Below, in pieces: positions 12,935 to 61,307 of a DNA stretch of 64,000 bases. The notes below the pieces were generated by a model. The model did not search any database. It was not told the DNA's origin and worked only from the letters and a program-made list of their open reading frames with translations. Both the position numbers and the translations under genes were made by a program. Source of the stretch: Sycon ciliatum. Its lineage: Eukaryota; Porifera; Calcarea; Leucosolenida; Sycettidae. The stretch is taken from NCBI RefSeq assembly GCF_964019385.1, contig NC_088650.1:24633711-24697710 (forward strand), in the 5' to 3' direction. How positions within the stretch are numbered: the first letter of the stretch is position 1; every line of letters begins with the position of its first letter.

Positions 12935-14519
12935 ATTAGGTGAGTGTGGCTTGATGTGTGCTTGCACGAGCATGTGTTGTCACAATCAGAGTGTTGTGAC
13001 AATCAGAGTGTTGAGCAGCTTGATTGCAGTGCTAATGAACAGTCAGTTTACAGTAGTGATTGGGGCCAGGCAGCATTTTCTGTGAACAATCAGTCAGGTT
13101 GAAGTTTCCACTACCCAATGGCAGACTAGCCCGCACAACAGTACAACGTGTTGCCAATTGGTGACCCTACCCTGCGCCGCGCTAGCGCTTTGCGCTACGT
13201 GACAAGAGGCGGCTGGGCCGTCCTGTTGAATGTGCTGCGTGGCTACCTGTGTGCTATTTGATGCTGGACCTGTGTGATAACACTCGGCACATGGAACACA
13301 GGACCGTTCAGTACCGAGGAGTACAGAAGCGACTGATGTCATGACATCAAGGTCGTTGACCCGCCACCCTGTCCTTGAGTTACTGTTGATCCTGATCTGA
13401 GCGTCCTATGCTGCAGCAGACCAGCGCGGCTGGCTATTGCATCACACTGCTCACCACTGCCACTGCTCACCACTGCCACTGCTCACCACTGCCACTGCCT
13501 GCGCCAGTGCCACTGTACCTGTAATACCTGGTGGTCTAGAACCAGTCAGACACTGAATGACAGTGGGAAAGCTGCCTCATACTTTAAAAACACGTGTGGG
13601 CATGCAACATGGCTTCCCTCCGGGTGACTGAGACACACCATTATGGCTGGACCCCCCCCCCCCACGATGTCTCCTTACTAGCTATGATATAGCGTCCCTC
13701 CGTAACAAGCATCAAAGTGTTGTCACCGCTGTGTTCAACTAACATTTTCGTATTTCCCTATACTTGACTCGCTTATATCACCTTACCATCAGTCCCTTTG
13801 CCCGTCCCGCCAAGCCGGTGATTTCATTTTTGTGATACGAGTCCCGGCGTATTTCACATTACCCTGGCTCAGTCTGTGTGGGAACTCTTGAAGCTTCCCT
13901 GCAGCAGCAGCAGCAGCAGCAGCAGCCCTGTCATTGTTTCAATCTTTAGTTTGATATACTAGTATTTTTCCTGGTCTTGCCTCAAGCTTTGCAGCAGCAC
14001 GCTTTTCCTCTAAGAAGCTTGTATGCCAAACTGCATTTTATATCAACTCACACAGCTTTTTTTTAGTAGACTGTCCTGTTATCAGGACTGCTATTTATCG
14101 ACTCTGCTGGCGCATTTTGCCAGTTTCTTTGCCTTCGACAAATGGATACTGCACTGCAGCTGTTGACTCTGTGGCCAGCCACTTTTGTATCAATTTGAGT
14201 AGGGGTGTCACGGTTATCTGAAACTGATGCATATGGGGGATGCATATGGGGGATGCATTGCATATGGGGAGTAGTAAAATGGAAAATACTACAGTAGATA
14301 CCAAGCATTTGACTACTCCCTGGTTGCATGCTACTGCTACATTCTGTAGTACCGCTGCATGGTATTCGGAGAGTACATGAAGTGAGAAACCTGATGATTG
14401 GCGACCATATCTGGTACAGAATTACTAGTGCACTGGTGATCCCAGTGTCTGCTCCAGCGCCGGGTGAGCCGGGTAATCCACCCGGTTGGGCGGCGCTTGG
14501 ACCCGGTTGAAAATATAGT

Positions 14520-16913: not shown

Positions 16914-17316
16914 TACGCCGCTCTGCCTGAATCAGGCATTGAGCACTCTTGCAGAACCAAAGCATATTGCCTCAGTGATTTTCTTCTTCTTCTATTTTTG
17001 TGTCGTATCAATTGTTGCAGTATGCATTGATGTGTGAGGGAGATCTTAGCTGCCTCTACAGTCATAAGTCCTTGGCCCGTGTGTGTAAAGTAGTCCCGGC
17101 CCGCCTTCTAGTATGACCAAGAGTACATAACCCGGAGAGTACGTGACCCCCGGGTTATGTTCTCTCCATTCCGGGTCATATACTCTTCGTATTTTACGAC
17201 TCTCTGCTTCGTATGATCATCGGTCTGAAGTTACAACCCCCCCCCCCCCCCGGATCACTTTTGAGGAGGTGTTGAAAGTATCTTCGTGCTGTGTCCTGCC
17301 CAGACAGACTGTATGT

Positions 17317-19107: not shown

Positions 19108-22100
19108 CTAGGCCAGATCCAGCAGAAAGTTGATCTGATCCACCAAGTGGCAGGCCATTAGAATCACAACGACCTGAACAAGAACGATTTTCGAGCACAT
19201 AGAAAAAAGAATTTGCTGAACTCAGCCAATCTGACCAGTCTTGCTTGATTCTGTGCAAACTGTCACCTAAGCAGAGTTGAGTGCAGTGGGTTGAGTTCTG
19301 TTCAATTGTAGAGTGAACAAACACATTAAATTTTCACAATACTCTTCAATACATGCCTATCATAATTATGACAATATCCTGCGCAAGTGGTTGCATAGCA
19401 AAGTTCTCAATCAGAATGCTTACACCGGTGTTCACAAATCAGTCGGGCAACCACGTCCCGCAGCCTTCGTCACCGCCTTGGTCACCCCTGCCCGGCACGA
19501 GCATGCATTATACATGTGGACATCTAGCTACCGGCTTACCTCGAGGAAGAGAAGGCCGAACGCAATTCCTCCGACTAGAACATAGTTATCCTTCACCCAC
19601 TTGAGAGCCGCATCGCCACAACCTTCTTCGTAGATAATTTCTGATCTGTTAAACTGAAACGGACGTAGGGAAGACGGCAGGGGCTCAATGGATATACCAG
19701 GGCTATCATGCTTGGTAGCCATCATCACTAACTGGATCAAGTTATGAACTGGAAATTGCTCACTATTGCAACCAGACAGCGCTAAATGCATAACACACAA
19801 CTCATCCTCCATGCCCTCTCCTCCCCAATGAAAGAAGACAAGAACTTCAAGAAACTTACAATTGAGGGCCACTTGGCTTGCTCAGCTACTGGCATCTCAG
19901 GATATGCAAACACCTTATAACCACACTGAGAATCTGTCTGAGACTGTCAAACATCAAACACAGCCGGAAGAAACCAAGCATGATGGTATTAAACTGAATG
20001 ATTTATTGAGCGCAAACAGTAAGAGGCAGATTTCTCATTGCTGTTTTCTGATGATCGCTTAGTGCGTGAAACTCGGAGTTAAAACACTTTCTCTGTCCTC
20101 TTATTGTTTGAACCAGCTCTGCCTCTCGGTATTGAGCACTCTCTTGGACAGCCTTGAACCTCTCTGATTTATTGAGCGCATATGCAGTAGAATATATGCG
20201 GCGATCACCTGCCTTAGAGGACCACTACAAATAGGACCAAGGGATACTAAATACTATTTCCAGTCAACCATGACCCTGGACAAGGAGACCATCGGTACAC
20301 AGTGACCACATTTTGAAGGTCCCTTGAGCGGTCGCCTTAGACAGGTTTCTCTGTAGCTGCTGATACCTTCCAATCACAGTACATTGATCATGGTAATGTA
20401 GTAAATGTACCCTTTTTATATCCCTGATATAACACTGTTTTGAAAAGCACTAAACAAAATCCCACATTCAAACCGACATCTGAAAACGAGGTATGATCAA
20501 TATCTATTGTGGTCTGTGTAGTATTGTAGCCATTCAATGAAAAGTAGCTGGTAGTACACCAGCAGTCACGGTATGCGGCACTGCTCACGTTTGTCCTGCA
20601 GCAGGATGGCGGTACTCCGCAACTGCTTATCAGGTCGCTGAACAGCTCCTCGGTGCAGTTGAAGTAGCGGTTGTTCTTGAGCCAGTCGCGCGGCGTGTCC
20701 GCGCCACAGCACTTCAACTGAAGACAACAACACAACACACAGAGGAACACAGAGAATTTCGACAAGCAGGACACGCACGGCTAATGACAAGATAGCACAT
20801 ACGTCGTCTCCTTGTGAGAAGGCACCATTGCCTGTTTGGTTGAACGACTACTTCGAAGTATAAATAAAGCACAACATGACATGCAATACCGTAAAGTCGT
20901 GGATAAAAGCCGGGTTTGCAGACAAGCACATCGCGGATAGAAGCCTGAAAATCAAACGGGTCAATGCATATAAGCCTGTCGCGCGTAGAAGCCTGGCTTC
21001 TATGCAAGCGCGGATCGGCCGATGTGCATACAAGCCTGGCAAAAATATCAGTGGTGCCAAGAGTACATGAAAACCAGAGTGTGCAGCTCGGATGGGTGGC
21101 TGTCACGGCGAAATTCCGTGATTACATCATTTTAGTGATGTAGTGCGTACAAGCAGGATTCAAGCAGGTCTCTTTCTGCACAACTGCAGCTCAGTTGTAC
21201 GCACTACGCCATTTCCCGCCTCAGATCTGGGCCAAATATGATGTAATCACGGAATTTCGCCGTGACAGACACCCATAGCAGAAAAGGCCCCAAGCTGCAC
21301 ACTCTGGTTTTTATGTACTCTTGGTGGTGCATATAAGCATGGTTTGCATTGAAGCCTGATGCAGAAAGCGGCTTATGTGCTTATAAGCCCTACGGCTTTT
21401 ATCCGCGACTTCACGGTATCTACATTATTGTCCCGTTCAGAGCATCAGCCATCGGGCAGTGTAGTACAATCATGGTGGTCATTGTCATTGCAGCAATAGC
21501 TACTGAAGGCGAAGAGAGGCCGGTACAACTAAACAACGGTTACAGAGAAGGATACACCAGACAGATGAGCACAAGGAGTAGGAAGAGCAACATGAGAAGA
21601 ATGAAAGCAGCCGATTGCACATCAAGAACTCATGTACAAGCATGGGTGAGATCAGGAGGGTGGTGTTGTGAGGGTGCAAGTGTGAAATCAACCCAATGGC
21701 ACGCTGCTCTCGGTAATGATTTGTGCTGCCGACTTATAAGGGGCCCGGTCACACTGAGGGAACAATCTTCAGATTATAAACCGGGGATAATTTTGTTACT
21801 TTTTATCACGATCTCAATGGATGTGTAAAATGAAAATGATCTCACCCACACAAGTTATTTTTTTATTTTTTTGTCACCATTCGCTTCTGGCACCCCGCTC
21901 CTGGGCCAGAGCTGCATCAGCACAGCCTCTAGAGTATCGCTCCACTTCAAACCGGAAAAAAAAAAAAAAAAGGAAACTTGTCGCGAACCATGTACATACC
22001 CTTTACATAAACCACTCGAAGCAGACCATATTTTCCTTAGTGCCCAATTTTCTTGTGAATCAAGACTGAAGAATATTTACAAGGGGGGAGCGATAATATA

Positions 22101-23835
22101 GGTGAGTCGGAGTGTATGCCTGTAGCAGTAGTGTGCCGTGAAAGTGTCTTGCGTACAGCGTCAGCAGAAATATACAAGCGATAAATATACAAACGCATCG
22201 AAATAAGCTCCCAAGGAGTAGCGAAGAATCAAAGAGAAGCAAGAAGAGCACCAAGTTGTGGAACTAAAACAGCTCCACGTGCATGTAGCTGAAAAGGTGA
22301 CACATAAAGATACGCACGGTGCAACGAGTCCAACTGTGAGCATGAAAATGGATAGTGAAGGCCATCAAAGATGCCGATAGTCGTACACACAGTCCGTGTT
22401 GGATGTCGGTGCGTGTGCAAGCCAAGGTGCATGGGTTCAAACTGAATCAAAGGGTGCCCAGAATTGAACCTTAGAAATGCAACGAAATGCAAAGTGAAAA
22501 AGGGGTGTCACAAAGGGATGCGAGTGATTGAACGTACAAATCATGCACTGAACAAGGATACATGTATACGTAGCTGTGAATTCTTGGTTATATACATGCA
22601 TTGTGCTCGTGACTACGAATAAATCCGATCGCATTCGCGACAAAACTCAAAGAAATCCAGTGGAAGCCACGGATGATTATAAGCTTCTTCGGAAAGCGTG
22701 GCCTCGAGCTGATTTTCATCGGGTGGATTACTAATGTCAAATCTCCCGCTTAGCGGCAAATATCCATGGTAGCCACGGATTTTTTTTCCATTTTTCCCTC
22801 AATGTGACTGGCCCCTAACCAACAAACTACGATGCTACTTTACCCATGGCGTTTTCACACTTACATTCATCTGCACGCCTTCCACAGTATCATCCAGGTC
22901 GGTCTGCATATTGGTGGTGTGGTACTGTTTGATAGCATCAAGCATGACACTCTTTGTACGCTTGATAAACTGTACAGGGAACACACAGAACGGACAACGC
23001 TATCATATCATGGGAAACACGTGGATAACGCTGTACGGAGAACAGGTCTCCAGCTGCAAGTAGGAAAGACTAGAGCACTCCTATTTTAGGTGCACATATA
23101 TGTACGTAACGCCAAGGGTACATGAAACCAATAGCGTGCAGCTTCAGACTTTTTCTGCATGGGTGTGTGTCACGGCAAACTTCCACGATTACATCATACT
23201 TGTATTTGGTGCAGATCTGAGGCGGGAAGGGGCGTAATGCGTATAGCTGAGCTGCAGTTGTGCAGAAAGTGACCGGCTTGGACACACTTCATAACTAAAA
23301 TGATGTTATTACGGAATTTCGTCGTGACAGCAACCCACCAGAGCTGCACACTCTGGATTTCATGTACTCTTGGTAATGCGTACAGTTAGCTGTCATGGAT
23401 CGCTTTTACAAGAGATTAACACGGACAAGCAAACACTCAAATGGTGTGAGGGTCTACTTCTTGATGTCTTGAAAGTACTTGGAAATGGAAAACAAAATTT
23501 AATGTTATTCATAAAGGAGAGCAGCAAGAGACTCCCCCACACCCACCCACACCCATCTAATACTACATACTTGCTGATCTGGCACTGGTGAATGATCCAG
23601 TCCCAGTCCGGGGCGAGAGGGTAAGAGAATTCTAGTGAATGAGAAGTGAGGAGATCATGAGAACTTATTGTACAGTACTTTCTTTGCATCGTCATGCCAA
23701 CACCCCCCCCCCCCCCCTGTGAGTGTGGCAGTGTAGTATGCCCTTGCCTATCTGCACTTCACGACGAACCAGTTATCTGCAATGTACTGAACGTAAGTGG
23801 TCTATTGAGGAACCCACAAGCATTTGCTGCACTGG

Positions 23836-30390: not shown

Positions 30391-30470
30391 GGGAGTCGTG
30401 GTATTTTACGACTCGGCCTGGTCTCAGGCCAGGGAGTCGTAAAATACGGTTCCGTATTATTACGACTCCC
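30391..30470. repeat. GGGAGTCGTA inverted-repeat cluster
   Basis: GGGAGTCGTGGTATTTTACG and two further copies of GGGAGTCGTA or its inverse TACGACTCCC lie in alternating orientation. A similar mini-palindrome (AGGGAGTCGTA and TACGACTCCCT) lies at about 47551-47578. They may be collapsed TIR elements. Confidence 0.55.
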
Positions 30471-31401
30471 ATGGGCTACAGCTGCATGATGACAGTCGTG
30501 TATGATGTACATGCACTTATATCTTTAGCTACGCTGCAGCGCTGACAAGTGACAGTCGGTATCCATCTTTTGTAGTCCGTCGCCACAAAGCTGTCGCATT
30601 ATGTCAACAATGCAACGACTTACTTTTCACCGTGACGTCGGACGGAAGTGAGAGAGGTGTGTTTGGTCCATCCTCCTCCAGAGGAGTCATGTGACATGAC
30701 TGTATTACATGTACCATGATTACTGTATACAGTAGTACTTTGGTTGTGACTGTCGTTCGACCTTCTGCTGTTCCCCTACATACATGTCAATTTTAGGTAC
30801 AGGTCCTGTCAGAGTGTCAAGTGGACCCGTCACACGTCAGGCGAGATGCTGAGAGATAACCAAAAGAGGAGTGCCACTGCCAGTGCTAGCAGCAACACCG
30901 CCCAGACCTTTGTAGACTCTACCGTCACCACTGGCACTGCACTGCTCACAGGTCTGGCCTGTGCCTGTGGTGTGTGAGGTCCGGACAACCTATATTGCAC
31001 ATGTACAATGTCATGTAGCCTCGGAATTGTGGAATTGTAGCTACACGTACTTCAAGGAATAATTTAGTACAAACACATGAGGGTGATACTGGGTGATACT
31101 GGTACTTGGCAACTGATGTCGCTATAGGGCATCGCTTGTTTAGACAGCGGAAGCTACAGTCACTAGTTCTAGCCCAGTGAATCTATGAAGTATGATAGTT
31201 GATACAATTATGTACATGACTTTGTACATGTGTCTGAAGATTTGGCAACTTTTACTTCACGCCTGCTCCTGACTCTTGCGCTATGAATATACCCTCAGAA
31301 TTTCCCACCTTGCTCCCCCTTATGTTCAGGCTGCCCGTTTTGGAGCCATCAGTTGCCTGATGATCTTAGTAATACGTGAAATTCAGAGTTGTGACACAGC
31401 T

Positions 31402-36900: not shown

Positions 36901-39900
36901 CCATTCTTGCAGCATGCTGGTGGCACACCGCAGCCAGTCAGCAGCTTGTCAAACGTCTCCTCTGTGCAGTTGTAGTAGCGATTGTTCGAGAACCAATCTC
37001 GGAAACTCGTTGCTCCACAGCAAGCAAACTACGCGATGAGGGAGAAAAGAAACGCGAATGCCAAGAAGTTAAAATTGTTTAACCCTGAAGATGGGCCATG
37101 CCCGCGGATTGGGCGAAGACGGAAAGACATTGGCAGCACAGAGATCATGTGATGTGAATGTTGAGACTGCTGAGTGATGTGTAACTGGTTAAAGGATGTG
37201 GATTCTTAGCCCTTTCCGCGCCTTTGCTGGAGTAGCGGTATGGCCCAATTATCACCAGGCAAAACGTTAAAATAGTACATAGCCAGTGCCCGGTTTTCTG
37301 CCTCGCATTGCATGCCACGTGCGGTTACGGTCTCCCAGTGCCTTCAGGGACGCCTACATTTTTTCCCCAGAGCCGATATGGATACTCTGGCTGGCTTAGC
37401 AAGCCCCTCACAATCCAGTCAATGGCCACAGGTAGTGTGTGCCGCCCAGCTCATATCACAGGAGCCATCTTTCCTACCGACATGCTACTCTTCTCTCAGG
37501 GTAGCATTCATGCCTGGATGCTACTTGTGGAATGCTTAATAATGGACACTGTGCACCGTTGCATGTTATTAGATAGTGTTGGTTGAAGAGATGGAAAGGC
37601 ACCGGGTGATTTAAGTAAGTGCTGATCTGGAGTGACATCTAATGTTCAGTTTACTCACATTGATTTGCACTGCCTCAGTAGCATCATCCAGGTCAGTCTG
37701 CATATTGGTGGTGTGGTACTGCTGCAGGGCCTCTGTCATCTTTTCTTGGGTCAGCTCGGTCACCTGGGACACACACACAAGAGGCCATAGCAACAGTCAG
37801 AGAGTGTATTAGCACTAGAACCAAGACCTGGCAACACAAGATTGTCACTACGATCTCATCTTGTAGGGAGACCGTGCACCACTCTGTCTTCATGCCGCCA
37901 TCAACTCTATTCACGTAGCGTGGATGATCGGAAGCCACACTCTATGCATGGTTCTCAAAATAGCTTTAAACTTTCGAACAGAACGGAAACCCATGCCCTA
38001 AAATTCAGGGACCACCTGCACCTTTAAGACAGCGGCCAACACCGGTGCACTGCAGAATTGAGGGACCGTGTCACAATACCCCACAGGTTCCGTATAGCCG
38101 AGTGCATGTGCATATTCCCAATGGCGATTAGGCATCATGTAGGCACGGCAAGCACATCACGGCAAAAAGTGATAAAAAAGCAATGATAATATGCCCAGAA
38201 ATGAAGGGTGGGAGGGCAGGGACACTGGTGAGACTCCTAAACTGACTGAAGAAGTCAGGAAAAGAAGCGACAATAAAGAACACACCAGATACCATATTTG
38301 CAACTGAAAATATTGCGCGAGAAATACAACGTCCCAACAGCAGTCCACACAATAACAGTGGAACTCTAGAGTGTACTCTGATAAGACATACCCTCTCTTA
38401 GCACGGACATTGTCTGGAGCACGGGTGTATTGATCCATACCGAAAAAAAAAATTATGTTCTGCGTACATTCACTACACCACCAGCACCAGCACCAGCACC
38501 GTTGTGCTGTGTGCTGCTGCTCATAACCTTCTTCTATCTGAAGCATGCTGTGATAAGAAGAACTTTGGCCACTAAGTACGCATTCCTGCTGCCCATATGG
38601 GTAAGTATTATCAGAGTTCTACCATACCTTATCCTGTAAGAGGAATGCCGCCACGCCACCAGCAATCTCGAGCAATAATATGATGCCGAGAGTGAAGCCA
38701 AACTGCAGTGGGCGCATAGAAAGAAGACAGGCCGGCCGACTTACTGGTTGCATTACTTCTATTAAATGCTGACCTTGCTACAGCCTGTACGTACATGTAG
38801 CAATAACCGTAATATCATGTTTGCGTGTGGAGTGCGTGTGCGAGGGCTACATAGAGGCACGCGTTCGCTGGTATAGACATCTCAGGGCTACATAGAGGCA
38901 CGCGTTCGCTGGTATAGACATCTCAACTGTTCTCGTACGTACGTGCCATGTGCTTGTACTAGGAAGTGCACTACAGTCAACTTTGCGCATAACGACACAC
39001 GACGGCGCATGAGAAAAGTGTCCCTTTCCCCGAAGTCTCATTATGTATTACAGTTAGATGGGACTTTTCCGCTCTGGGCATGGAACTTCTGTCATTATTC
39101 GCGAATTGTCGTTTTATCCGTAGTCGTTATTAGCGAAGTTGACTTTACATGAGCATTAATTTTGTTCTGAATAACTGGGCCCATTTTGCACCCCCTCCCT
39201 CATCATCACCCCCACCCCGGAATAAAGCATAAACAAAATTCACAAAGCGAGCTGATTGACTTACGACTTTCAGCAGGCACACATTCTCCCGCAGGGCGCC
39301 GATGCATCCGCAGAATCCAACGAAGAACATGATGGTGCCGACGGCGATGAGGAGAATGGCAGGGTCCGTGGACCAGCCGGACAAGGTCTGCCAGTCATTC
39401 TGAAGCAGTCTAGCGTATATGCCTACGCCCAATATGGCACCTCCACACAGCTGTACAGGCATGAGTACAATGGAAAACGAACACAAAAGGCTGTCAAGTG
39501 TCAGTGGAACCTGGGCCAATCGGCGGTGATCCAAGGCAACAAGTCAAGAGTTGCAAACTATACCACTACCTTCAAAACTTGTAGACAGTGTAGAAGCTAT
39601 CTTGCACCATCAAAACTTGTAGACAGTGTAGAAGCTACCTTGCACCATCAAAAGATCCCATCTCATGGATAAAGGAAAGCTGCACTCGCTACACGACCCA
39701 TTCCATCGTTTACACAGCTACATGACCTATTCCATGGTTTACACAGCTACACGACCTATTCCATGGTTTACACAGCTACATGTAGGACTGCGCAGCCCCC
39801 CCCCCCCCCACACACACACATGCATGCATGCATGCCTTTACATGTACGTACATACTCATTTTTGCATTGGGCAGGTTGATTTGTAGTTACAGCAACAATC

Positions 39901-42900
39901 ATCCACAGGGTTCTGGCCAGGTCAAAATAGTAGGGGGGGGGGGGGGGGGCAGGCACGGAAAACATTTACCCCGTATCCCATTTTCCACTTTCCAATAATT
40001 AGTAATAGGTTTTTCATTTGACCTGACGAGACACAGCACGCACAGTTCACCAGTACCTTCTCTATACAATAGCATTATTCAGCTTAACCCCTTCATTCAA
40101 CAACTGCTTCTCCTCTGATGAGTTCCCCGTCATCTTTATGGAACGAAACAAGACTTGTCAGGAGTAATACTACTTGCCGCATGGAGTGTGACTGGTGAAC
40201 TGTTCGTGCTGTGGTCTGCAAGCGTCGTGTAGTCTCGTCGGGTCAAATGAAAAACCTATTACTACTATTTGACGGACCTATGGAAGATGGCAACAAAGAA
40301 TTTCCAATAATTATTGTCTTGCCACGCCAAATGCAAGGTATGGGGCGAATCCCCGACTTCGCCCCAAACAAATGTGCCTTTATGAACCATCTAATACTAC
40401 AAGTAGTAGTGACTTTCGACTGCACTTTCATTGAATTGCATGAAATACACGAAAATCGGAAAATGAGTAGGGGGGGGGGGGGGGCATTTTTTCACAGGCG
40501 CTGCGCCTCCCTTCACCCCCTTTGGCTAGAACCCTGATCCAGTTGTCTCTATTTCATGAGTCAAGACTGTGCAGGACGGGATTGTGCACTACAGTGCAGC
40601 CCATCATTGCAATGCGGTCAGACCTCGCTTATCCGGTCCTCTTTTATCCAAATCCCTCGCCATCCGGAAGAAAACCGTTGGCTATCGATTTACAGCATAT
40701 GTCATGCATAGCGTTACACACAGCACGTGTGTTCGATTATCCAGTTCCCTCGTTTTAAACGAGGTGTGAGTGTACTGGCTTTGCGAATCCACTCAGGTGT
40801 GTATTAGTGTAGTGATAAGGCGGCAGTGCAATCATGTACGTAGGAGCAGTGCAATCATGTACGTAGGAGCAATACCATGCACACTGCTGCTAGCTCTGGT
40901 GGCTTCCTTCCTCTTTTACCAGGGAGTAGTACAATACCATTGTATTGTACTACTCCCTGCTCTTTACAGGGCCGGCGCCACTGGTACGGCCATGGCCGTA
41001 CCAAAAAAAAAAAAAAAGTCGGTCCACGTGGAACGTCCAAAACCGGGGAGAAAAAGTCTCGATGTATGAATTTGTACAGGGAGTCGCCCAGATTGCAGGA
41101 TTTGCCGTCTAAATTCCAATTTTTTTCTGGCGGAGGACCCCCAGACCAGTGGCGTGCACCGAGTCTTGAAAGGGGGGTTTCTAGAGTTGGTAAATTTTTT
41201 ATGGAGACCCACTGTATAATATTATGTATTTGTGCACATGCGCATCCCCTGGACATCCCGTCGAAGATAACGGCGAGGGCTAGGGAGGAGGGAGGGGGGG
41301 GGGGGGGGCTCAAGATTAGGGGTGCAGGGCACCAATGAACACTGGTGCTGATGAGATGCGGGGCTCGTCCAACTGCTTTCACCAGGATCATGCCGGCACA
41401 AATGCGTCTGAGCATGAGAGGGAACCAGGTACAGGGGTAGAAAGGACAGAAATAAGAGTAAGGCCACCCTTTCTTTTTTCGTTGTTTAACGTCCGCGCCC
41501 GCGTACCTTTTTGCCTCCGACCGGAAAAAAAACAAGAAAGTAGTAGTACCAATAATATGCGAAGTTGTAAATACATGATTGTGTAGTTTCACAGTGTGCC
41601 GATCATGACCTTAAACTTATAATCTTGCCTCCCGAGCATGCCTTTGTCTTGTGTTCTTTTTCTTTTTTTTGTTGGCTTTTAAATATCGTACGGTGTGTGC
41701 CCTAGTAAAAATCCAGATGTAATGAATTCATGACATGCTAACTCCATGCTATGTACATGTACCTGTTTTGTTGGATTCATCAGGCATGTGCTCCAATGTA
41801 CCATCAAAGAGTGTTGTTCTATGCCTGCAAGTGCCGTTAGACCCAGAACTATTGTATATATCACATGCTTTACTGGTCAAAATGTTTGATTGGGATTTCC
41901 AGTTTTTGGAATGGGCTTTTGTTTTTTTTCCGCCCTCCCGCGTACCTTTTCGCGAAAAAAAGGACGTTAAACAATGAATTAACAAAGGGTGGCCTAATGA
42001 GGAATGGAGGGAGGGGACGATGTTGCATGGAAATATTGGTACATGTATAACCGGTAAATAGGATAAAACGGGTTACCTTTTACATACCAGCACTTCAAAA
42101 AGCATTTGCAAAGAGGGTGCAAAAGTCAATGTACTCGATACATGTTTGTCATATTGAACACGTAAAATTAGTTTGATAGGCCTAGCCGCCCAGGCTACAC
42201 TACAGTCTATAAGACTAAGTATAACACTGTGTCTATGGTACTTCACTATTCCACACCAGGCATGTTTGTTTCATCAAAACACTGCTTACATTCGACGGAT
42301 CTTTCTTTCTGTTCTTATGACGAAGTTTTCAGCATGTATTGGCAATGTTCCACATGATTTCAATAAAGAGTTATGGGCCTTGCTTCGATGGAAGTTCGCG
42401 GAAGAAAAGCGAAGCCCCGCGCCCTTGAGTCGCGGCCGGAGCAGCGCTTCGTTCTGAAGCAGCGCAAGTGGATCATGGACGCACAGTCATATTTACGTCT
42501 TCCAGTCGACAACGTTTTTGACGAACATCTCTGCTGCGCACATGAGCGAGAAACGAAAGGCTGTGGAGATCTTGATTTGAGTCAACAGTTTGGAAGGAGA
42601 TTATCGTCAATCATATCCTTGAACTGACTTGCATCGCGCGTGCTTGACTCAAATTTCGAGACAGAACGGATTTCTTGAACGTCATCGCTAATCCAGGAGC
42701 GAACCAGAGCTAGAGATCGATCTCTCTGTCGCTACTCTCCACTGAAGAAAGAGAGAATAATGTATTTTGAACTGCTTGCAAAGCAACTCTCTCTCACTTA
42801 GAAATAAGGACATAGTCACTGTACTGTAAACTGCCCGTCGATCGACGCGTATGCAGGATAACCAATCCAGTAGGCACGCTTTTCCTTTGGCAAGATTGCC

Positions 42901-45010: not shown

Positions 45011-45090
45011 AAATAATTGCAGCAGATTATTTTTATTACTTGTATAAATACTGTACGAAGTAGTGGTTGCGACTTCGGCGATAATTTGTA

Positions 45091-45533
45091 AGAAAGGGTT
45101 TGCTCCCCACACCGGAGCTCGCGCTATTCCGCCGACTTTACTTGACACTTGACTGACTCACGACTGCCATCCAGAGCATCACAGGAGCGACACTGACTCA
45201 CGCTGCTATCTGGTGTTCACGAGGTGTTTGTCGCGCTGGAAGCGGAGCGTCTCTGTAAGTTTGTATCCCTGGTGATGTTTGTGCCTGGAGAGCACTATAT
45301 AAGTGGTGCTCTTCAGGCACAATCTTCCTCAGCCTACTCAAGCTCAACTGATGAGGGGTGAATTCCCCGAAACACTGTGTATTGAGCAGGGAGTGGTGCT
45401 TTCTTGCAGGTTTGCCGAGTCGAAGGTTCGATGGACTTCTCGTGTGCTCTGGATGGCAGTCGTGAGTCAGTCAAGTGTCAAGTAAAGTCGGCGGAATAGC
45501 GCGAGCTCCGGTGTGGGGAGCAAACCCTTTCTT
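45091..45533. mobile_element. Foldback element with 88-bp identical arms
   Basis: The left arm 45091-45178 (starting AGAAAGGGTTTGCTCCCCAC) and the right arm 45446-45533 are exact inverse complements. Just outside, CTTGTATAAATACTG occurs in direct orientation on both sides (about 45040 and 45531). At the centre, TATATAAG (45296) lies between GTGCCTGGAGAGCAC and GTGCTCTTCAGGCAC. Related decayed sequence lies at about 15610-15810, 35240-35330 and 62470-62515. No coding frame. Confidence 0.8.
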
Positions 45534-47512: not shown

Positions 47513-48707
47513 CCGTGGTAGTGGAGGGACAGAACGAGTGTTTCTAACCAGGGAGTCGTATAGACCCTACGACTCCCTGTTTCTAAACAACGGCTTGCCC
47601 AGAGTGGCTAGCCAACGGCAAAGCTATACCTAGGCGCGTCCATCAAGCCATTTTGCCGTATGCCACCCACGTTTTCACAATCGCTACAGCAGCTACATGT
47701 ACCGTACCGGTAAGCAGGCAACATCGGGATTTAGGAATAGAATGTTTACGGCAAGAAATGGCTTCCCATTATGGATACAACGATACAACGATACAACGAT
47801 AAAAATCAGTTGACCTTGCACGTACATGTATAGCGCTAATTCTCGTCTCCCAGTGTGATTCAGGCTTTCGCGGATGTCTCCACGGCAGAGGCACTAACTG
47901 TCTTGAAGAACAGATCCGTGATGTCTCTCCAACCTCAGTGTTCTGTCATGCACTTCGACGAGTGACGGTTGTGCAATGCACTACATAGCTATCTCTCACC
48001 GTCTCAGTTTATTTTCGATATGGAATTATCCTAGGCGAGCAGAGGCAGCCCGAAGCATCGGGACGCTCCAACCCGTGAACAGCTCTACTGTTAGCTCTCA
48101 CATGGGTAGGTTCTGTCAGCCGATAGGATGACAAAATCATCCCATGCTTGTGATGATGGATGGGCATTTCCAGTGCCCAGCCACAGGAGAGATTATCCTG
48201 GGCTTGAAGTACAGTGCATGGTGGCAAGTCACTATGCCACGCATTGCTACTCTGTCTCGTCATTCTGAGCGTCCGCTTACCTCGGACTGGGAGCCTTGCC
48301 ATGGCAGTAGAAGTCGTGACTGACTCCAAAGCGTCCTTGACAGTACATCGGCCGGTGCACGAGCGTCCCACATCACCAACAGCCTGGATCTCCACGCACT
48401 ACAGATGCCTTCCGCTACCTGGGATGTCAGGTTATGACCGATGCTCGGAGCACATTCGATGTATCCCGGCGAGTCGCTACTGCCTTAGGTACGTTTTTCA
48501 GCCTGAAAGAGACCATTTTCTGCAATGATGATTTCCACATCGGTGCAAAAGGAGTGGTATATGGCGTCACGGTCCTTGCCACCGGTCACCCTGCTCCATG
48601 GCTTAGAGAGACAGAGGGAAGTACGGAAGCTCGAGCCACATAGCCGGACACGGCAGTGGCACATGTAGATCTACAATGTACATGTACAAGGAAGGACGGA
48701 AGATGTG
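47513..48707. other. No supported gene
   Basis: A short GGGAGTCGTA palindrome is at 47551-47578 and ATACAACG repeats are near 47774-47800. Open frames of about 100-128 codons overlap on both strands at 48009-48530. No domain was recognised. Confidence 0.4.
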
Positions 48708-49792: not shown

Positions 49793-50370
49793 TAGTTGGT
49801 TGACACTAACAAGGTGGAGGACAGTCACACCGTGTTTGGAAACAGTGACCTTTCTACAGCCATCCACGGTTGGTAGAGCCCCGGTCTGTTGAGACCATCT
49901 GAACCGTATGGGTCTTAGACCCGGTTCTGACCCTCTTTATTCCAGGGGAGTTTTTTTATAGACTTCTCCTAACGTCAGTCGTGTATCTGTGATCGCTCCG
50001 GCCTGGATGTCTTCTTGATAGTCATAAAAAATAGTAGCTATTTTTTTAACCTGAATTGTTTTTTCTTCCAACTTCTTCCCATGGGCCATCACTGATACCA
50101 TGGCGTCCCTCTCTCAGCCCGTCAGCTGACAGCAGTCACTGTCACCACCATGACACTGTCGTGAGAAGGTGCTCTCTGTAGACAAGGTTGGTGATGTCCT
50201 GACGCGGCTATGGCATTAGGCATGGGTTCAGATGGTCTCAACAAACAGACCGGGGCTAGTCTACCAACCGTGGATGGTTGTAGTAAGGTCACTGTTTCCG
50301 AACACGGTGTCCTCCACCTCCAACTACCTACAAGTCCTTGTTACTGTCAGTACATGCTGTCAACCAACTA
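49793..50370. mobile_element. Foldback element with about 115-bp arms
   Basis: The left arm starts TAGTTGGTTGACACTAACAA. Both arms carry GGTGGAGGACA, GGAAACAGTGACCTT, CCATCCACGGTTGGTAGA, GCCCCGGTCTGTT and GAGACCATCTGAACC. The right arm contains small insertions. The middle is T-rich without a frame. No flanking duplication was recognised. Confidence 0.75.
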
Positions 50371-50720
50371 CTACTACCGTAAAGTACCGCCAGAGCGCCC
50401 CGTCTCGCGAGAGCGCCCCACCTTGATTTTACAGCCAGAGAAAGGAAAATCGTATGGCAGAGTGCTACGAAGTTTGTACGATGTAAGAAGCTTAGTACGT
50501 ATAGTGTACTAAGGTCACACTTGGCAGGTTTTTGTGTGGAGCTTGTGTCCGCTCGAAGGTACGGATTGACTGCAAAACGTGCTGTATGTGTACAAGGTTC
50601 TTCCCGTATGTCACGTGATTGTCGCCTTGGAGTTGACCAATGACAGATCAAACAGCGCAGGCTGGAAAGCGCGGTCCTGCCTGCTCAAATTTCAATTTCA
50701 AAGATCAAAGGTGATGGAAC

Positions 50721-50880
50721 TGGATCCACTGCCCGTCGTCAAGTGACGACGGGCAGGAACGGATTCCACTGCCCGTCGTCAAGTGACGACGGGCAGGAAC
50801 GGATTCCACTGCCCGTCGTCAAGTGACGACGGGCAGGAACGGATTCCACTGCCCGTCGTCACTTGACGACGGGCAGGAAC
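50721..50880. repeat. Array of four 40-bp units, each containing a perfect palindrome
   Basis: Units at 50721-50760, 50761-50800, 50801-50840 and 50841-50880 are almost identical. Each holds CTGCCCGTCGTCA, a 2-nt spacer and TGACGACGGGCAG. The spacer is AG in the first three units and CT in the fourth. A degenerate fifth unit (GGATTCAACTGGCCGG) follows. The arms can form four adjacent 13-bp hairpins or cruciforms. The array ends about 130 bp before a small open frame at 51012. Confidence 0.95.
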
Positions 50881-51011
50881 GGATTCAACTGGCCGGCATG
50901 GCCGTCGCCGGGCAGTAGCCACTGGACTGACTCTACTTCAAGGTCTTTCATTGGTTACTAATAAAATAACTAAAGCAGAAGAGCGACTGTTTGCAACCAC
51001 AACTGTCATCA

Positions 51012-51259
51012 TGGCGCTCCAACATTTGATCTGGAACTGGGAGAAAAGAATCCCCTTTGTTGAACGATATTGTCGATGCGAATGAGCTCCTCCGAAAAGT
51101 TGAGGAAGAGACTGAAACTTTTATTGCGGAGTCGCTCGCGAAGGAGATCTTGGACGAGCCGGATGAGCCTCAACCAAAGCGCGCAATGCTCAGCAACCTG
51201 CAGGATCCGCGCAATTTGCCGAGGTTTCCGATCAAGACGTGTAGTGGGAAAAATCCGTA
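51012..51259 (+). other. Possible small coding exon or decayed gene
   Basis: The plus strand from 51030 to 51257 reads an acidic, coding-like peptide including ELLRKVEEETETFIAESLAK and EILDEPDEPQPKRA before a stop. An ATG at 51012 opens MALQHLIWNWEKRIPFVERY in a neighbouring frame, so a frameshift or an unseen splice would be needed to join them. Upstream there is ATTGG (inverted CCAAT) and an AATAAAATA stretch. No family was recognised. It could be a decayed transposon gene. Confidence 0.25.
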
Positions 51260-51639
51260 GGAACAGAACAGTCAGAATGCCCGATGCCCAGTCGACAATG
51301 TCAATGGCCGCGCGAGAAAAAAAAGCACTATGGACTACTACAAAAAACTGTACCAGAAAACAATCACAAAACACAATGCAGGTGTGTCTGTCATGTATCT
51401 CTTTATTTGGCTTGGGTGCACACGGGAAACACGTTCCAGTCACTCATACTCGGCCAGTACCGCTGTTCATCCAGCCCTTGCCGCTATCGCGGCGCGGGCT
51501 GGATTCCGCGGTACTGGCCTCGTACTCGTGCAGGAACATGTACATGTCGTATGACCTACAGACAGCAGACCACCTCCACAATACGACCACGAAAGGATGA
51601 GATGGTGGGGCGCTCTGGCGGTACTTTACGGTACTAGTA

Positions 51640-51674
51640 CCAAGAGTACATAACCCATGGTTATGTACTCTTGC
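51640..51674. mobile_element. 35-bp minimal CCAAGAG-type element
   Basis: CCAAGAGTACATAACC and GGTTATGTACTCTTGC are inverted arms around CAT. TAGTA flanks both sides as a perfect 5-bp duplication. It consists of little more than two transposon ends back to back. Confidence 0.8.
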
Positions 51675-52203
51675 TAGTACATGTACTGTACATCATTTTA
51701 ATATTTTTTTGTTTGAACAAAAACAAGGTTTATCTACATGACATTGTACAATCAGTCATGCAATACTAGTACTACACTAGTACTAGTAGTACTAGTAGTA
51801 TATAATTATAGTGTCACTCGACTCTACTATACTGTACAGACTAGTACGTACTACATGTATTATGATTGTAGCCAGTGCAGCGGCTAAATTTTATTTTTCA
51901 AGGAAACCCTTCCGAAAAGTATCAATCGATTCAGCATGGCAACTAAACTTACTTGAACCGTGCCGCAAAGTCTCAGCTGATTTGGAGTCATGATAAGGAT
52001 GCCATGGCGATTTGAAGATTGAAAACCTCTGTTTTGTTTGTCAAGATCCGACTCAAGAAGATCTAGAGAAAGGCTAGGCCATGAATGCATGATTCATGCC
52101 CACAAAATATTGGTGACAAATGGCACAGCCCGGCCCGTAGCCGTAGGCGTAGCGACGCCACGTAGATGGATCTACATGTACCAGATCTACAGTACGACTC
52201 GTA

Positions 52204-53499
52204 CCAAGAGTACAAAACCCCCCAGAGTGTGCAACGCCTGATCCAGCTCTACTCTGCAAAAAAGTCTGCATAGGGTCTTGGTCGAGCGGAATCGGATCTT
52301 TGCGTCATAATACCGTACACATCTGAGGGGAACCCGGGGAGTCGCGGGTACTCTTGGATCAAAAACAATGGTGCCCTGCCTCGAGACCGGTAGGCACCGG
52401 CGGATTATGCCGGCATAATTATTTGGTGGTTGAAAATTTGGAGCATAATTTGGCATCCTTTCGGAGGTAGGAGCATAACTGCATGATTGTATCACAGTTC
52501 TAGTATGTAGGCTACACAATTGTGAACAGTGCACCTCATCAGTGCTGGTGGTCTGCATGGTAAAGGGTTCGGAGGTCATGCAGCCTAGATAGTGTTTTCA
52601 ATGAAAAGCAGGGTAGAAATCATGGAAATACATTTTGTGTGCTCGAACTCGTCTTCTCAAAGTTCTTTCTCACCCTGATACATGTACATGTAGCGGAAGA
52701 TGCGAGTGAATCAGCCTTTATCAGGTATCCCGGGGCGGACGAGAAAGTGGTGGGTAGTCCGCAAAACTCCGCGTACTTGTACACTATGCTTGTTACGAAG
52801 TCATGACGTCTGGATCTTAGCAGCTATGACTGTGCAGGCTATGGGTATTGCTCTAATAATTAAACAAATTTAGGTATAGTTGATGTTTGGTAATGATGGA
52901 AGGAGAACTGGAGCTACGGGAGAGATGAGCTGATTATGAGAATTCGCAGGGTTAGGCTGACATCGGTTGGACGAGTATGACGATTACGAAGACAGTTGAA
53001 CATGACAGTTTTGAAAGGTAAGGAAAAATCTTTCAAAGCAAAAGACTCGTTGAAGTCAACTAATGAATAGAAGAAGTAATGTTTTCTCTTTTCCAGGTTG
53101 ATCTCTAGTATGCATGGACACCTTGGTATGGGGAAACTCATGACATGTATTTCGTTGTACTTATGGCCACTTGCAAGTACGAAAAATGCACAATTTTCCG
53201 AACTTTGAGGCTCCATAAACACAACAAAGTGAATATGTATCCCCGCGTGCCAAACCATAATATGAGAATTTTGCGAGCATAATGCGAGAATCCATGAAAG
53301 CATAATTCCCTGATTTCGCGGGCATAATCCGCCGGTGCCTAGAGACCGGCCTTGCGCTGGTGTGAAGTGTACGCATGACATCAGAAGATCCGATTCCGCT
53401 CGACCAAGACCCTATGCAGAGTAGAGCAAGACCCTACACAGAGCTGGATCGGCGTTGCACACTCCAGACTCTTATATCTGGGGGGTTATGTACTCTTGG
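52204..53499. mobile_element. CCAAGAG-type TIR element, 1.3 kb, with nested insertion
   Basis: The ends CCAAGAGTACAAAACCCCCC and (inverse) CCAAGAGTACATAACCCCCC continue as arms of about 115 bp sharing GAGTGTGCAACGCC, GATCCAGCTC and GGTCGAGCGGAATCGGATCT. Most of the interior is a separate 951-bp element (52391-53341). The immediate flanks TCGTA and TAGAT do not match. No transposase was recognised. Confidence 0.8.
52391..53341. mobile_element. hAT-type non-autonomous element nested in the CCAAGAG element
   Basis: The ends TAGGCACCGGCGGATTATGC and (inverse) TAGGCACCGGCGGATTATGC match exactly over 20 bp. GAGACCGG lies on both sides as a perfect 8-bp duplication, which fits hAT transposition. 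Part of the interior is present in inverse orientation at 45905-46505. No transposase frame. Confidence 0.88.
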
Positions 53500-54901
53500 T
53501 AGATCTACTACCAATACCACTGTCCGTATTTTCGACGGCACAGGTGTCACCATCCAACCCGATGGTGCAAGATACCTCGGCGCTGCAATCGGCACGCCAG
53601 CCTTTGTCACCAGCTACCTGCAGCAGAAGGTTGAGGAGTGGAGCACACAAGTTCACCGCCTTAGCCAGTATGCTATCACTGAGCCGCAAGCAGCCTACTC
53701 AGCGTATGTGTACGGCCTGCAGAGCAAATGGACTTTTCTCTGTAGGGCACAACCTGGTATGGCTGAGCACCTAGCTCCGCTTGATGCTGCTATCACCAAC
53801 ACCTTCATTCCAGCTCTCCTAGGTCAATGCTGAGGAGCGCACCCTGATAGCATTGCCATGTCGCTTTGGAGGTCTTGGCATACCTCATCCGTCGTCCCGG
53901 GCCGAACAGCACCAGTCCTCCCTTGACATCACTGCCTCCCTCACCTGCCGTGTTCTCGCCCAAGATCCAGTTCTTGGCACGGCCATCCATGATGTTCGCG
54001 CTGCCAAGAAGCGCGTGATGGCGACAGCCGGGGAGTCAATTCGCGCAGCAGCCCAGGCCTTCTCTTCCTCCGCCAGTTCAGAGCTGCAGCGAGTGATCGC
54101 TCTGGCTTCGGAACCGGGTGCCTCAAGCTGGCTCACGTGCCGACCCCTTCAACGCCATGGCTTCACCCTGACGAAGTCGGAGTTTCGGGATGCTGTTTGC
54201 CTTCGCTTCAACTGGCTGCCGGTCCGGCTACCATCACTGTGTGCGTGTGGGCAGCAGTTCACTGTGTCTCACTCCCTCTCGTGTCCGACGGGTGGATTTC
54301 CGTCCATTCGTCACAACGAGGTGAGGGACCTCACTGCTCGTCTGCTCAGGCGGGTGGCCCATCAGGTGGCAGTTGAGCCACACCTCCAGCCACTCTCCGG
54401 AGAGCAACTCCGTTATCGCACTGCTATTGCTGACGACCAGGCACGCCTAGACGTCGTGGCTAGTGGCATTTGGGGAGGACGGTTCGAACGCACCTACATT
54501 GATGTACGGGTATTCAACCCCCATGCGTCTTCGAACCGTTCCAACTCACTTGCTGCTACCTATGTCCGTCATGAAAAGGCTAAGCGTCGTGCGTATGAGC
54601 AGCGCCTGAGGGAGGTGGAGCATTCCAGCTTTGTCCCCGCCATCTTCTCGACCACCGGAGGCATGGGAAAGCATGGTGCTTCGCTCTACAAACGCATCGC
54701 CTCTCTCCTCGCTGCCAAGACTGGGGAGCCATACAGCATCACCCTAGCTGCCATCCGCTGCCAGATTGGCTGGTCCGTTCAGCGCTGATGTGCTTGCGTG
54801 GTGCACGCAAGGCATTCTTACCAGCAATGGCCTCAGACTCGGCAGCGCTTGTTGTTGCTGAAGCAAGAATCTCAGCTTGAGGCTTACATTATTATTATTA
54901 G
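53500..54901 (+). pseudogene. 5'-truncated non-LTR retrotransposon with restriction-like endonuclease, copy 1
   Basis: From 53512 the frame reads the end of a reverse transcriptase, including DGTGVTIQPDGARYLGAAIG. A one-base frameshift near 53823 follows. The next frame continues ERTLIALPCRFGGLGIPHPS to the stop at 54786-54788. It has a CxC...H...C zinc motif (CACGQQFTVSHSLSC) with RHNEVRD. It also has ADDQARLDVV and ERTYIDVRVFNP, a PD-(D/E)xK-like endonuclease core. That domain order is known from R2/R4/NeSL-type elements; the clade is not assigned. A 100-bp 3' stretch ends in (ATT)4. It starts directly at the end of the CCAAGAG element. Related copy at 44510. Confidence 0.85.
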
Positions 54902-55676: not shown

Positions 55677-57490
55677 ATGGTGAGGAAACTTTCATTTGGA
55701 GCGATAATGTGGGCGGCATATGTGCCATCTTGCATTCCTTGCTGCAAACAAACGCGTTTGTTTTGAGCCGTCTGATTCCGACTTTGAACCTTCTCGCCTT
55801 CTCTTGTGGTGTGCATGTGTGCATTTGGGGCATGCTGTCACTTCAATGTCCAGCGTGAGGTAATTTCGATCCATGTTGGGCAGGCAGGTTGCCAAATGGG
55901 CAATGCCTGCTGGGAGCTGTACTGCTTGGAGCACGGCATACAGCCTGATGGCATCATGCCTGGTGATGAGTCCGTGGGCAAAGAAGACGACTCCTACAAC
56001 ACCTTCTTCAGCGAAACTGGTGGCGGTCGGCATGTCCCGAGAGCGGTCTTCGTGGATCTGGAAGAGACCGTGATAGGTATGGACAGCTTGTGGCTTTGGT
56101 TCTGGTCGCGGGTCACTAGTGTACATCATGACTTTCATGTCAAACTATGTTTTTTTTCTATTGCTGAAGAGTAGATGTACATAATTGTATAATGTACTTT
56201 CACCTCGGGGTCATTCAGTAGATTTGTGGATGTAAAGCGTATACTCGAAGCAGGGTTCTAGCCAGGTAAAAATAGTGTGTGTGTGGGGGGGGGGGGGGGG
56301 CAAGGGAAACATTTACCCTGTAATCCACATTTTCTCCATTTTCCCAAACTGTCTTGCGACACAAAATGTGCAAGTGTGCCTTTATGAGCCCTCTGTTAGT
56401 GACTATCGACTGCATTTTTCGTTGCCTGAAACAACACAAAAATCGACAAAAGAGTGTGTGGGGGGGGGGGTGTGCAGTCAATAATACATACATGTACATG
56501 TGTGTACGCACTTCCTCATCGTGCATATTGAAGCTGTGCGCCAGTCAAGACCCTACTACGAGGGTTGGAAGCAGACGTTATGGGATAGATTGGCGCAATG
56601 AAAACGTACAGTAGTATCAAGCGCACATAATACTGAAAGAGTGTGCAACTCCGTCTGACTTTGCCGGCATGTTATGGCGTGTGCCAGCAGCAAAACCTCG
56701 CATCATGGTGCGTTGGTTGTTCTTGTACTTATCCACGCGTGCATGAACATCGGGCTGCAGCAGAATTTCCAGGCTAGGGATGGAGGGATGGAGCGGGAGA
56801 ATGGTAAATATGGCAAGGTGCTGGTGTATGATCTCCAGATTGCATTGCCCTCTCTGTCATGCCCGTTTCACCAGGATCTCTCCCTTTGCCAAAGTCATTC
56901 AGTGGTTGTATACCGATTGATTCTGATCCCATTTTTTGTTCTGGTAATTTCTTGTGCTCTTTTTTTCCTACGTCAGATGAGATTCGGCGTGGCGCATACC
57001 GCTCCTTGTTCCACCCGAATCAACTGATCACTGGCCAAGAGGATGCGGCAAACAACTATGCGCGTGGCCATTACACCGTGGGCCGCATCAAGATTGACGA
57101 GACCCTGGACAACATCAGGAGAATTGTACGCCCAGTGGTTTGTGTGCCGTTCCATGCATACCGTCGCTGTTCTGTGCAGCGCAGGCTGTGCTCTTTGTTT
57201 GGTGTGGCAGGGTGTTTCCTGGGCAGTTTCCGACTTTGTTACATGTGACTTACTGCCAGGAATTGTTCACCGCAAGAAGGATTACACCTGATGGGGCAGT
57301 GGTATTTAGGGCTTGTGTCCAGGAACTCACAGAATGCATGGTAGAGAATATATTGTTGCTCACGCTTGGTCATCTGTTCTATTCCCGTGGCTGCACTGTC
57401 AATTCATTGAGATCTTTCTCACCCCGGTGTGTGCTTGCAACAGCTCATTTGACTACTTGTTCTTATGTTTGCACTGGTGTGGCTTGCTGC

Positions 57491-59949: not shown

Positions 59950-61307
59950 CGCGCTCTCACATTTGTGTGTGTGCATATTAATTGATGTGCGTATCTGTGC
60001 ACGCTGTTGTTGTAATGCTCAGCATCATTGCGATTCGATGGTGCCCTGAACGTTGATCTGACCGAGTTCCAGACTAACCTCGTTCCATACCCGCGCATCC
60101 ACTTCCCGCTCGTTTCGTATGCGCCGATCATCAGCCCCGAGAAAGCAATGCACGAGAATATGTCAATCTACGACTTGTCCAAGAGCTGCTTTGAGGGCAA
60201 CAACCACATGGTGAAGTGCGACCCACGTCACGGCAAGTACATGTCCTGTTGCTTGCTGTACCGCGGCGATGTTGTGCCCAAGGACGTCAACGATGCGATC
60301 ACCAGGATCAAGGGCCAGCGGAACATTCAGTTTGTTGACTGGTGCCCCACAGGCTTCAAGGTGAGCGGCGCTGGCACTCCAGAGCCACATGTCATTAGCA
60401 CGAGTACCTGTATGGCTTCCTCAATAGGGTGAAGATTACTAGTATGCTGCCGACTTGGAACTGTGTTCACCGTTTCCGTTGAAGTACTGGGAGAGCACCT
60501 CACCACTTGGACTCCCTTTGTGGCCGTGTTTCGGAGAGGAACGGACGGGTTGGTCCTCTGTGTAGCATCAGAAGTTCCACACAAGAACAGTAGACCCTGT
60601 GTTACCCTAGTACACTCCAGCTCTTACACAGTATTGACCTTTAATAGTAGCACTGATTTCCCTCAAGTATGCTCACCATAATATGCTAGGGATGCAGTGA
60701 ATGCATACAAGTGCAGGAGTCCATGGTAATATCCCCGAATTCTGACTAAATTGCTTTGAAATCATACTTTCTGCTGTTCTCCATGGAACCAGCCAGGTGA
60801 CCACCAGCAATTAGAAAAATATGCACAGATTATTCCAGGGAAATTCCCGATTATGCCCGAAACATGCAACACCCTGATGTTTCCAGAGTTTGTGCCAGCA
60901 CAGCCTATCGAGAAATAGGGTGATCTGACGGTACTTCACCGCAATGCTGGAAAGCGCGGTGCTTGCTTTTAAGTTGGCGAATATGCCTTTGTGTACATGT
61001 GTAGGTTGGAATCAACTACCAGGCAGCAACCGCTGTGGAGGGCAGTGAGCTGGCTCGAACAAAGAGGTCGGTGTGCATGCTGTCCAACACGACCGCCATT
61101 GCCGAAGCGTGGCAGCGCGTTGATCACAAGTTCGACCTGATGTACGCCAAGCGTGCCTTTGTCCACTGGTACGTCGGCGAAGGCATGGAAGAAGGAGAGT
61201 TCAGCGAGGCACGCGAGGACTTGGCTGCGCTGGAGAAGGACTACGAAGAGGTGGGCAGCGATACTGCTGCTGCGGACGGCGACGATGATGCTGACGCAGA
61301 GTACTAG
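55677..61307 (+). CDS. TUBA: Alpha-tubulin (7 exons, 452 residues), divergent isoform
   Basis: Exons: 55677-55679 (ATG only), 55854-56076, 56977-57125, 57615-57767, 58208-58397, 60023-60360 and 61005-61307, all with GT/AG introns. An ATG-only first exon is common in alpha-tubulin genes. The protein binds GTP and forms microtubules with beta-tubulin. GGGTGSG is at 142-148 and the catalytic glutamate is at 254 (DLTEFQTN). The C terminus is EY, so detyrosination is possible. Numbering agrees with the standard protein. It is unusual in several places: residue 40 is Glu instead of the acetylated Lys ([11 protein letters not shown]), 112-125 reads [12 protein letters not shown], 357-372 reads [16 protein letters not shown], and the tail [14 protein letters not shown] is aspartate-rich. 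The frame is intact, so it should be functional. Confidence 0.97.
56251..56480 (+). repeat. Fragment of the CAGGGTTCT hAT-like element
   Basis: CAGGGTTCTAGCCAGG is followed by a G-run, GGAAAACATTTACCC-like sequence and TGTGCCTTTATGA, as in the element at 39906-40536. The far end is not present. It lies in intron 2 of the tubulin gene. Confidence 0.5.
57488..57545 (+). repeat. (CTG)9-(ATG)-(TG)n microsatellite
   Basis: About nine CTG units run into ATG units and a TG tract. It is inside tubulin intron 3, some 70 bp before exon 4. Confidence 0.9.
58536..59015. mobile_element. GGGTACAGGTCTAC-ended MITE (outer element)
   Basis: GGGTACAGGTCTACACTCGT at the left and its near inverse (ACGAGAGTAGACCTGTACCC) at the right enclose 480 bp. 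Most of that is a second element (58607-58906). A decayed copy of the end lies near 63463-63485. Located in tubulin intron 5. Confidence 0.7.
58607..58906. mobile_element. TACCGTATTATC-ended MITE nested in the outer element
   Basis: The 26-bp ends, starting TACCGTATTATCTCTAATAT, are perfect inverses. They enclose about 250 bp with repeated ATTATTGGAGAC-like motifs. TA borders suggest a Tc1/mariner-type element. Located in tubulin intron 5. Confidence 0.85.
59114..59720. mobile_element. piggyBac-like MITE, 607 bp
   Basis: CCCTTTACTGTCCG and its exact inverse CGGACAGTAAAGGG are each bordered by TTAA. TTAA target duplication and a CCC start are the piggyBac signature. Subterminal TACAAGC and GCTTGTA form a second inverted pair. 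No transposase frame was recognised. Located in tubulin intron 5. Confidence 0.88.
59897..59945 (+). repeat. (TG)n microsatellite
   Basis: About 24 TG units in tubulin intron 5, about 75 bp before exon 6. Confidence 0.95.

Follow-up and report, generated by a model that had tools for sequence, protein, structure and literature searches.

A minisatellite in the genome of the sponge Sycon ciliatum, carried within a putative non-autonomous transposon-like element, probably owes the flipped spacer of its fourth unit to template switching during replication. The minisatellite has a 40-bp unit and, with a degenerate fifth unit, spans positions 50716-50915 of the window, as the whole 64-kb stretch of DNA analysed is called here; Tandem Repeats Finder reports a period of 40 and 4.5 copies with 95% matches at 50716-50895. 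Four 28-nt palindromes lie within it, each with perfectly complementary 13-nt arms around a 2-nt spacer, and the spacers read, in order, AG, AG, AG and CT. Palindromes 1-3 do not differ from one another, and palindrome 4 reads letter for letter as the reverse complement of palindrome 1. A preliminary description of this DNA had already given the spacer as AG in three units and CT in the fourth, which was verified letter by letter, and had pointed out that CT is the outcome of flipping the whole 28-bp palindrome, which the exact reverse complementarity of palindromes 1 and 4 bears out. It had also described four exact 40-bp units; the four perfect 13+2+13 palindromes are there, but the linker before the first of them reads GGAACTGGATCC in place of GGAACGGATTCC. 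Terminal inverted repeats around the array, the degenerate fifth unit and many unrelated hairpins in the window are features beyond that description.

The array and the putative element around it

The features of the array and of the putative element are as follows, in order of position.

50372..50376, plus strand: TACTA, possible target-site duplication at the left; exact 5-bp match to 51632-51636, weak
50377..50401 (50369-50401 if extended), plus strand: left terminal inverted repeat, 25 nt perfect
50406..50419, plus strand: inner part of the left terminal inverted repeat, present a second time in direct orientation as CGCGAGAGCGCCCC (repeat family D4, 93% identity)
50716..50728, plus strand: variant linker before palindrome 1
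50729..50756, no strand: palindrome 1, 13+AG+13
50769..50796, no strand: palindrome 2, 13+AG+13
50809..50836, no strand: palindrome 3, 13+AG+13
50849..50876, no strand: palindrome 4, 13+CT+13, exact reverse complement of palindromes 1-3
about 50876-50915, plus strand: degenerate fifth unit, imperfect hairpin
51030..51257, plus strand: stop-to-stop frame of 76 codons with 0 Pfam families, possible gene relic or chance
51425..51545, no strand: long imperfect second hairpin of the element, RNA folding z-score -9.35
51607..51631 (to 51639 if extended), minus strand: right terminal inverted repeat, 25 nt perfect
51632..51636, plus strand: TACTA, possible target-site duplication at the right

Among palindromes 1-4 every letter outside the unit 4 spacer agrees. 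The linkers after palindromes 1, 2 and 3 are identical and keep a single orientation, which restricts the inversion to the palindrome core. Since the arms are palindromic and the linkers are not inverted, the inverted segment would measure 2 to 28 nt and be centred between 50862 and 50863. A larger inversion across units was also considered and ruled out, as the linkers after palindromes 1-3 all point one way. The fifth unit has lost its palindrome core and is too diverged there to polarise the change between AG and CT; its core is predicted to form an imperfect hairpin of -9.8 kcal/mol. We infer, by majority only, that AG is the ancestral state of the spacer.

The palindromes of the array are not due to chance, and hairpins are common throughout the 64-kb window. 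The window holds 17 perfect hairpin loci (not all independent, since some are simple-looking ATGTAC repeats, as at 31629 and 31733, or have a common motif), compared to 0 to 3 (1.1 on average) across 12 dinucleotide shuffles. A hairpin locus was defined by arms of at least 10 and a loop of at most 12, and low-complexity loci were removed alike from the window and the shuffles. The array accounts for 3 of the 17 loci, as its units 3 and 4 count together as a single longer inverted repeat, and the total becomes 15 if the array is counted once. Its 13-nt arm has eight exact matches in the window, all eight of them inside the array; allowing up to 3 mismatches raises the matches in the window to 17, versus 12.75 expected. 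A kinship of the array with the GGGAGTCGTA-type hairpins of the window was dropped, as only the letters GTCGT are in common by eye.

From its sequence, the array probably sits within a non-autonomous DNA transposon-like element at about 50377-51631. This 1255-nt segment is bounded by a perfect 25-nt inverted repeat, and the array starts 339 nt from its left end. In extended form the inverted repeat (50369-50401 and 51607-51639) covers 33 nt at 97% identity with one mismatch, at a BLAST E of 1.9e-9. Terminal inverted repeats such as these (25 nt perfect, 33 nt at 97%) are expected of a MITE-like transposon, and such an element is also required to lack an intact transposase; none was found, with 0 of 12 scanned frames reaching the Pfam curated cut-off. 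Stop-to-stop frames of at least 40 codons touching the element number 22; the scan covered 12, one of which was read from its first ATG, and the remaining 10 have at most 68 codons. The best match below threshold was to EBNA-3, at 15.1 bits where the cut-off is 24.4, and is taken as chance. The second hairpin of the element, at 51425-51545, reaches -70 kcal/mol as RNA and contains an inverted match (51429-51541) at 74%.

Directly outside both 25-nt repeats stands an exact TACTA, though the same letters can also be read as part of the extended inverted repeat, and the surroundings are rich in TACTA and TAGTA, which makes the target-site duplication ambiguous. Another candidate duplication, CCAAC/CCAAG outside the 33-nt repeat, was dropped, as CCAAGAGTACA at 51640 begins another motif, one that occurs seven times in the window. 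Without the array, the element has a CpG ratio of 1.00, compared to 0.72 for the window, likewise without the array. Among stretches of the same length, 3 of 58 that do not overlap and 120 of 2425 sliding ones reach that ratio, and with 3/58 stretches reaching it, CpG enrichment was judged weak as support for the boundaries.

BLAST found no second copy of the whole element within the 64-kb window. The array pattern had no match in viral contigs or in prokaryote genome contigs, the terminal inverted repeat pattern had none in viral contigs, and 50340-51700 had none by blastn in plasmids or phages; these collections hold few eukaryotes and may lack the genome to which the window belongs, so the searches are little evidence on repetitiveness, the property that would tell most about a transposon. 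The window itself is eukaryotic and of nuclear type. Its matches to protein families include the tetraspanin family on the minus strand, over the Pfam cut-off of 32.1 at 39148-39543 (50.8 bits) and under it at 20391-20780 (18.4 bits), and tubulin on the plus strand at 55806-56174 and 60016-60429, both over the cut-off. Rfam at gathering scores finds only two tRNAs in the window, and GC per 2 kb ranges from 0.40 to 0.54.

Origin of the CT spacer

Folded as DNA, a single unit is predicted to form a 12-bp stem of -15.0 kcal/mol with an AG or a CT spacer alike. Neighbouring units can also pair with each other. For units 1+2, in which AG faces AG as a mismatch, the predicted energy is -35.6 kcal/mol, also as DNA; for units 3+4, in which AG faces CT, it is -41.2 kcal/mol, which is 5.6 kcal/mol more stable. 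Units 3 and 4 have 28-nt arms that complement each other perfectly, and the predicted fold of the two runs through 27 continuous pairs, then a 2-nt bulge and 4 more linker pairs. When the whole array is folded, unit 1 pairs with 2 and 3 with 4, both in the centroid and in the minimum-energy structure, whose frequency is only 0.0072.

As a history for the array, the 40-bp quasipalindromic unit would have multiplied head to tail via slippage or unequal exchange. When a replication fork passed the array, the nascent strand may have switched template briefly at a hairpin, copied the complementary strand and switched back, which would put CT for AG in unit 4 and leave the arms untouched. The switch could have taken place within unit 4, as a loop inversion. 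Alternatively, and this is the favoured route, it could have run across the longer stem of units 3 and 4, removing the sole mismatch of their 28-nt arms. Since AG faces CT in that stem, the CT spacer fits such a correction of a quasipalindrome between units as well as it fits a loop inversion; the two routes have the same product, and the sequence cannot separate them.

Taking AG as ancestral by majority, the derived stretch is the reverse complement of the ancestral one and the arms are kept, as expected of a template-switch flip. Set against a template switch is that two letters differ, the smallest footprint that a switch can leave. Inversion or strand switching had been proposed in the preliminary description, and as the simplest account of an exact flip from AG to CT the proposal stands, qualified by how minimal a two-letter footprint is; the route between units goes beyond that description. 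The inversion reading is supported, and its mechanism is an already known one.

Other explanations of the spacer are each considerably less probable. The one that survives best, though unlikely, invokes an ordinary tandem double substitution or a pair of point mutations, with the reverse complement arising by coincidence and without any inversion. The difference is indeed of two letters only, and any change of the spacer leaves the arms intact, which makes the perfection of the arms alone uninformative on the spacer. However, the change must strike both spacer letters within one unit, and only one in nine double changes fits; the chance of an exact spacer flip in one unit is 0.0028 for one random tandem double substitution and 3.5e-5 for two random substitutions in 4 x 40 sites, values computed after the pattern was seen and thus a guide only. 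Palindromes 1-4 also show no other letter difference.

It is slightly less probable still that the palindromes are sites for a dimeric protein, such as a transposase or a transcription factor, kept by selection; as the protein would read the arms only, the spacer would be free to vary. The identical arms of four units and the regular 40-bp period agree with this, as do the word ATTGG and a short ATG frame downstream. Identical arms are, however, expected anyway from recent tandem duplication, the core is lost in the fifth unit, and none of the 12 scanned frames of the element is at the Pfam curated cut-off. The exact arm is absent elsewhere in the 64-kb window, which is weak evidence. The binding-site proposal of the preliminary description thus finds no support within the window, where the exact arm occurs only in the array. 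Its inverted CCAAT box is present as ATTGG at 50950-50954, but a 5-letter word is often expected by chance; its small open frame downstream may be the first downstream ATG frame, at 51011, which has 24 codons only, a chance size, or one of two longer frames further on, at 51070-51600 (176 aa, TTG start) and 51284-51637 (117 aa, ATG). These two reach towards or into the right inverted repeat, and neither matches a Pfam family. In tests confined to the 64-kb window there is no evidence of a regulatory role, and the array is taken as a by-product of repeat expansion within a mobile element, presumably without a function for the host.

Improbable too is a route by way of a cruciform, which after extrusion would be cut and rejoined and would invert the 28-bp palindrome in place without copying. 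Each unit is predicted to form a 12-bp stem, the product would be identical, and available excerpts of a study of a chloroplast spacer describe palindrome-associated inversions as frequent (PMC2903610). On the other side, this route would require a very short palindrome to be broken and ligated in a coordinated way, none of which template switching needs. Cruciform cutting and rejoining and template switching are processes that the letters alone cannot separate. Least probable of all is an assembly, PCR or sequencing artefact: the 160-bp near-identical array may be mis-joined, library preparation is also open to template switching promoted by hairpins, and the artefact would share the geometry of the biological event, but the array is only about 200 bp and its flanks have no long match elsewhere in the window, so paired short reads and long reads should span it, and it seems unlikely that a consensus would err in exactly two complementary letters.

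Published cases and the value of the array

Ripley 1982 is reportedly cited for short-range template-switch mutation at hairpins, and Kelchner and Wendel 1996 are said to be cited for palindrome-associated small inversions of chloroplast spacers. In the available excerpts of a study of rRNA genes, 69 mutation clusters are compatible with loop inversion at perfectly pairing hairpins, an enrichment relative to simulation (Table 1 of PMC8794818), while loop inversion with a compensatory change has 6 cases and is not significant; Monttinen and Loytynoja 2022 there call loop-altering events rare. Excerpts of another study report the conversion of near-perfect into perfect inverted repeats, with only two differing letters in many cases, and its own method puts many such events in a non-significant class (PMC7954356). 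As far as these excerpts go, the Sycon array is like the hairpin template-switch cases of both studies in that the arms are perfect and the spacer is reverse-complemented or a near-perfect repeat is perfected. It is unlike them in that the footprint stands in one of four tandem copies, with sister units that may record the other state.

The chloroplast spacer inversions offer a second comparison, with palindrome-flanked loops in both orientations and frequent inversions in the text available (PMC2903610). There, as here, an inverted repeat has its loop in both orientations, but the trnH-psbA loops excerpted measure about 25-27 bp, their arms are 18 bp or longer and a single locus is involved, whereas the spacer here is of 2 nt, in a tandem array in nuclear-type sequence. 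As for the element, Drosophila foldback elements of the Tetris type are similar, in the excerpts at hand, in being apparently non-autonomous, with terminal inverted repeats, and in carrying tandem repeats (PMC4079207). The Tetris repeats are of about 220 bp and lie within the terminal inverted repeats, whereas the 40-bp palindromic unit here is internal to short ones. Repetitive hairpin-forming elements of sponge mitochondria also resemble the array, as excerpted, in their recurrent hairpins in intergenic DNA (PMC2800124), but those are mitochondrial, whereas the window is nuclear-type, with tetraspanin and tubulin gene parts. Among the excerpts available on palindromic MITE minisatellites, on elements with terminal inverted repeats and internal repeats, and on cruciform or dyad-symmetry satellites, no comparable array is named. 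No occurrence of the arm sequence was found in the literature.

Alone, one two-letter flip is what a known mutation process ordinarily leaves behind, and the array is a further example of a known mutation type. The least ordinary aspect is the combination, a tandem array with sister units perhaps unflipped in a hairpin-rich stretch. If the flip is biological, a tandem palindrome array would be a compact natural assay, since sister units may keep the unflipped state and no outgroup would be needed to count template-switch events. In that case this host would also be a good one for measuring such events, given the excess of perfect hairpins in the window. One could go further and suppose that template switching at hairpins is unusually frequent in the host genome, with hairpins arising, becoming perfect and flipping continually and arrays recording the flips in the spacers of their units, but this is a doubtful speculation.

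Other repeats in the window

Adjoining the right end of the element is a hairpin with 15-bp perfect arms (51641-51673) between CTAGTA direct repeats (51634-51639 and 51674-51679). This stretch, 51634-51679, resembles a tiny insertion, and its arm CCAAGAGTACA recurs in the window. On both strands together, the motif is found at 17117, 21057, 21314, 23363, 51640, 52204 and 53489, and CCAGAGTGTGCA comes next in four of the seven. It heads a 101-nt inverted repeat (21057-21157 and 23273-23373, 88%), and for that reason CCAAGAGTACA could mark the terminus of a family of DNA transposons.

Hairpins at 14267-14320, 30429-30473, 40920-40959 and 47549-47579 have outer arms of GGGAGT[AC]GTA and differ in their inner arms and loops, possibly forming a family; two are perfect, the one at 14267 was scored imperfect and the one at 30429 is bulged by eye. 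With up to 3 mismatches, CCAGGGAGTCGTA has 22 matches against 12.3 expected. At 45090-45533, 89-nt perfectly matched inverted repeats stand 266 nt apart, perhaps as a young foldback or MITE-like element. Two consecutive open frames at 53366-54785 give the by-eye impression of the end of a LINE-type retrotransposon, with 0 Pfam matches. Lastly, a 1263-codon open stretch at 9143-12931, rich in S, T and A, combines coding repeats of 33 bp with a possible membrane segment close to its end and looks mucin-like by eye.
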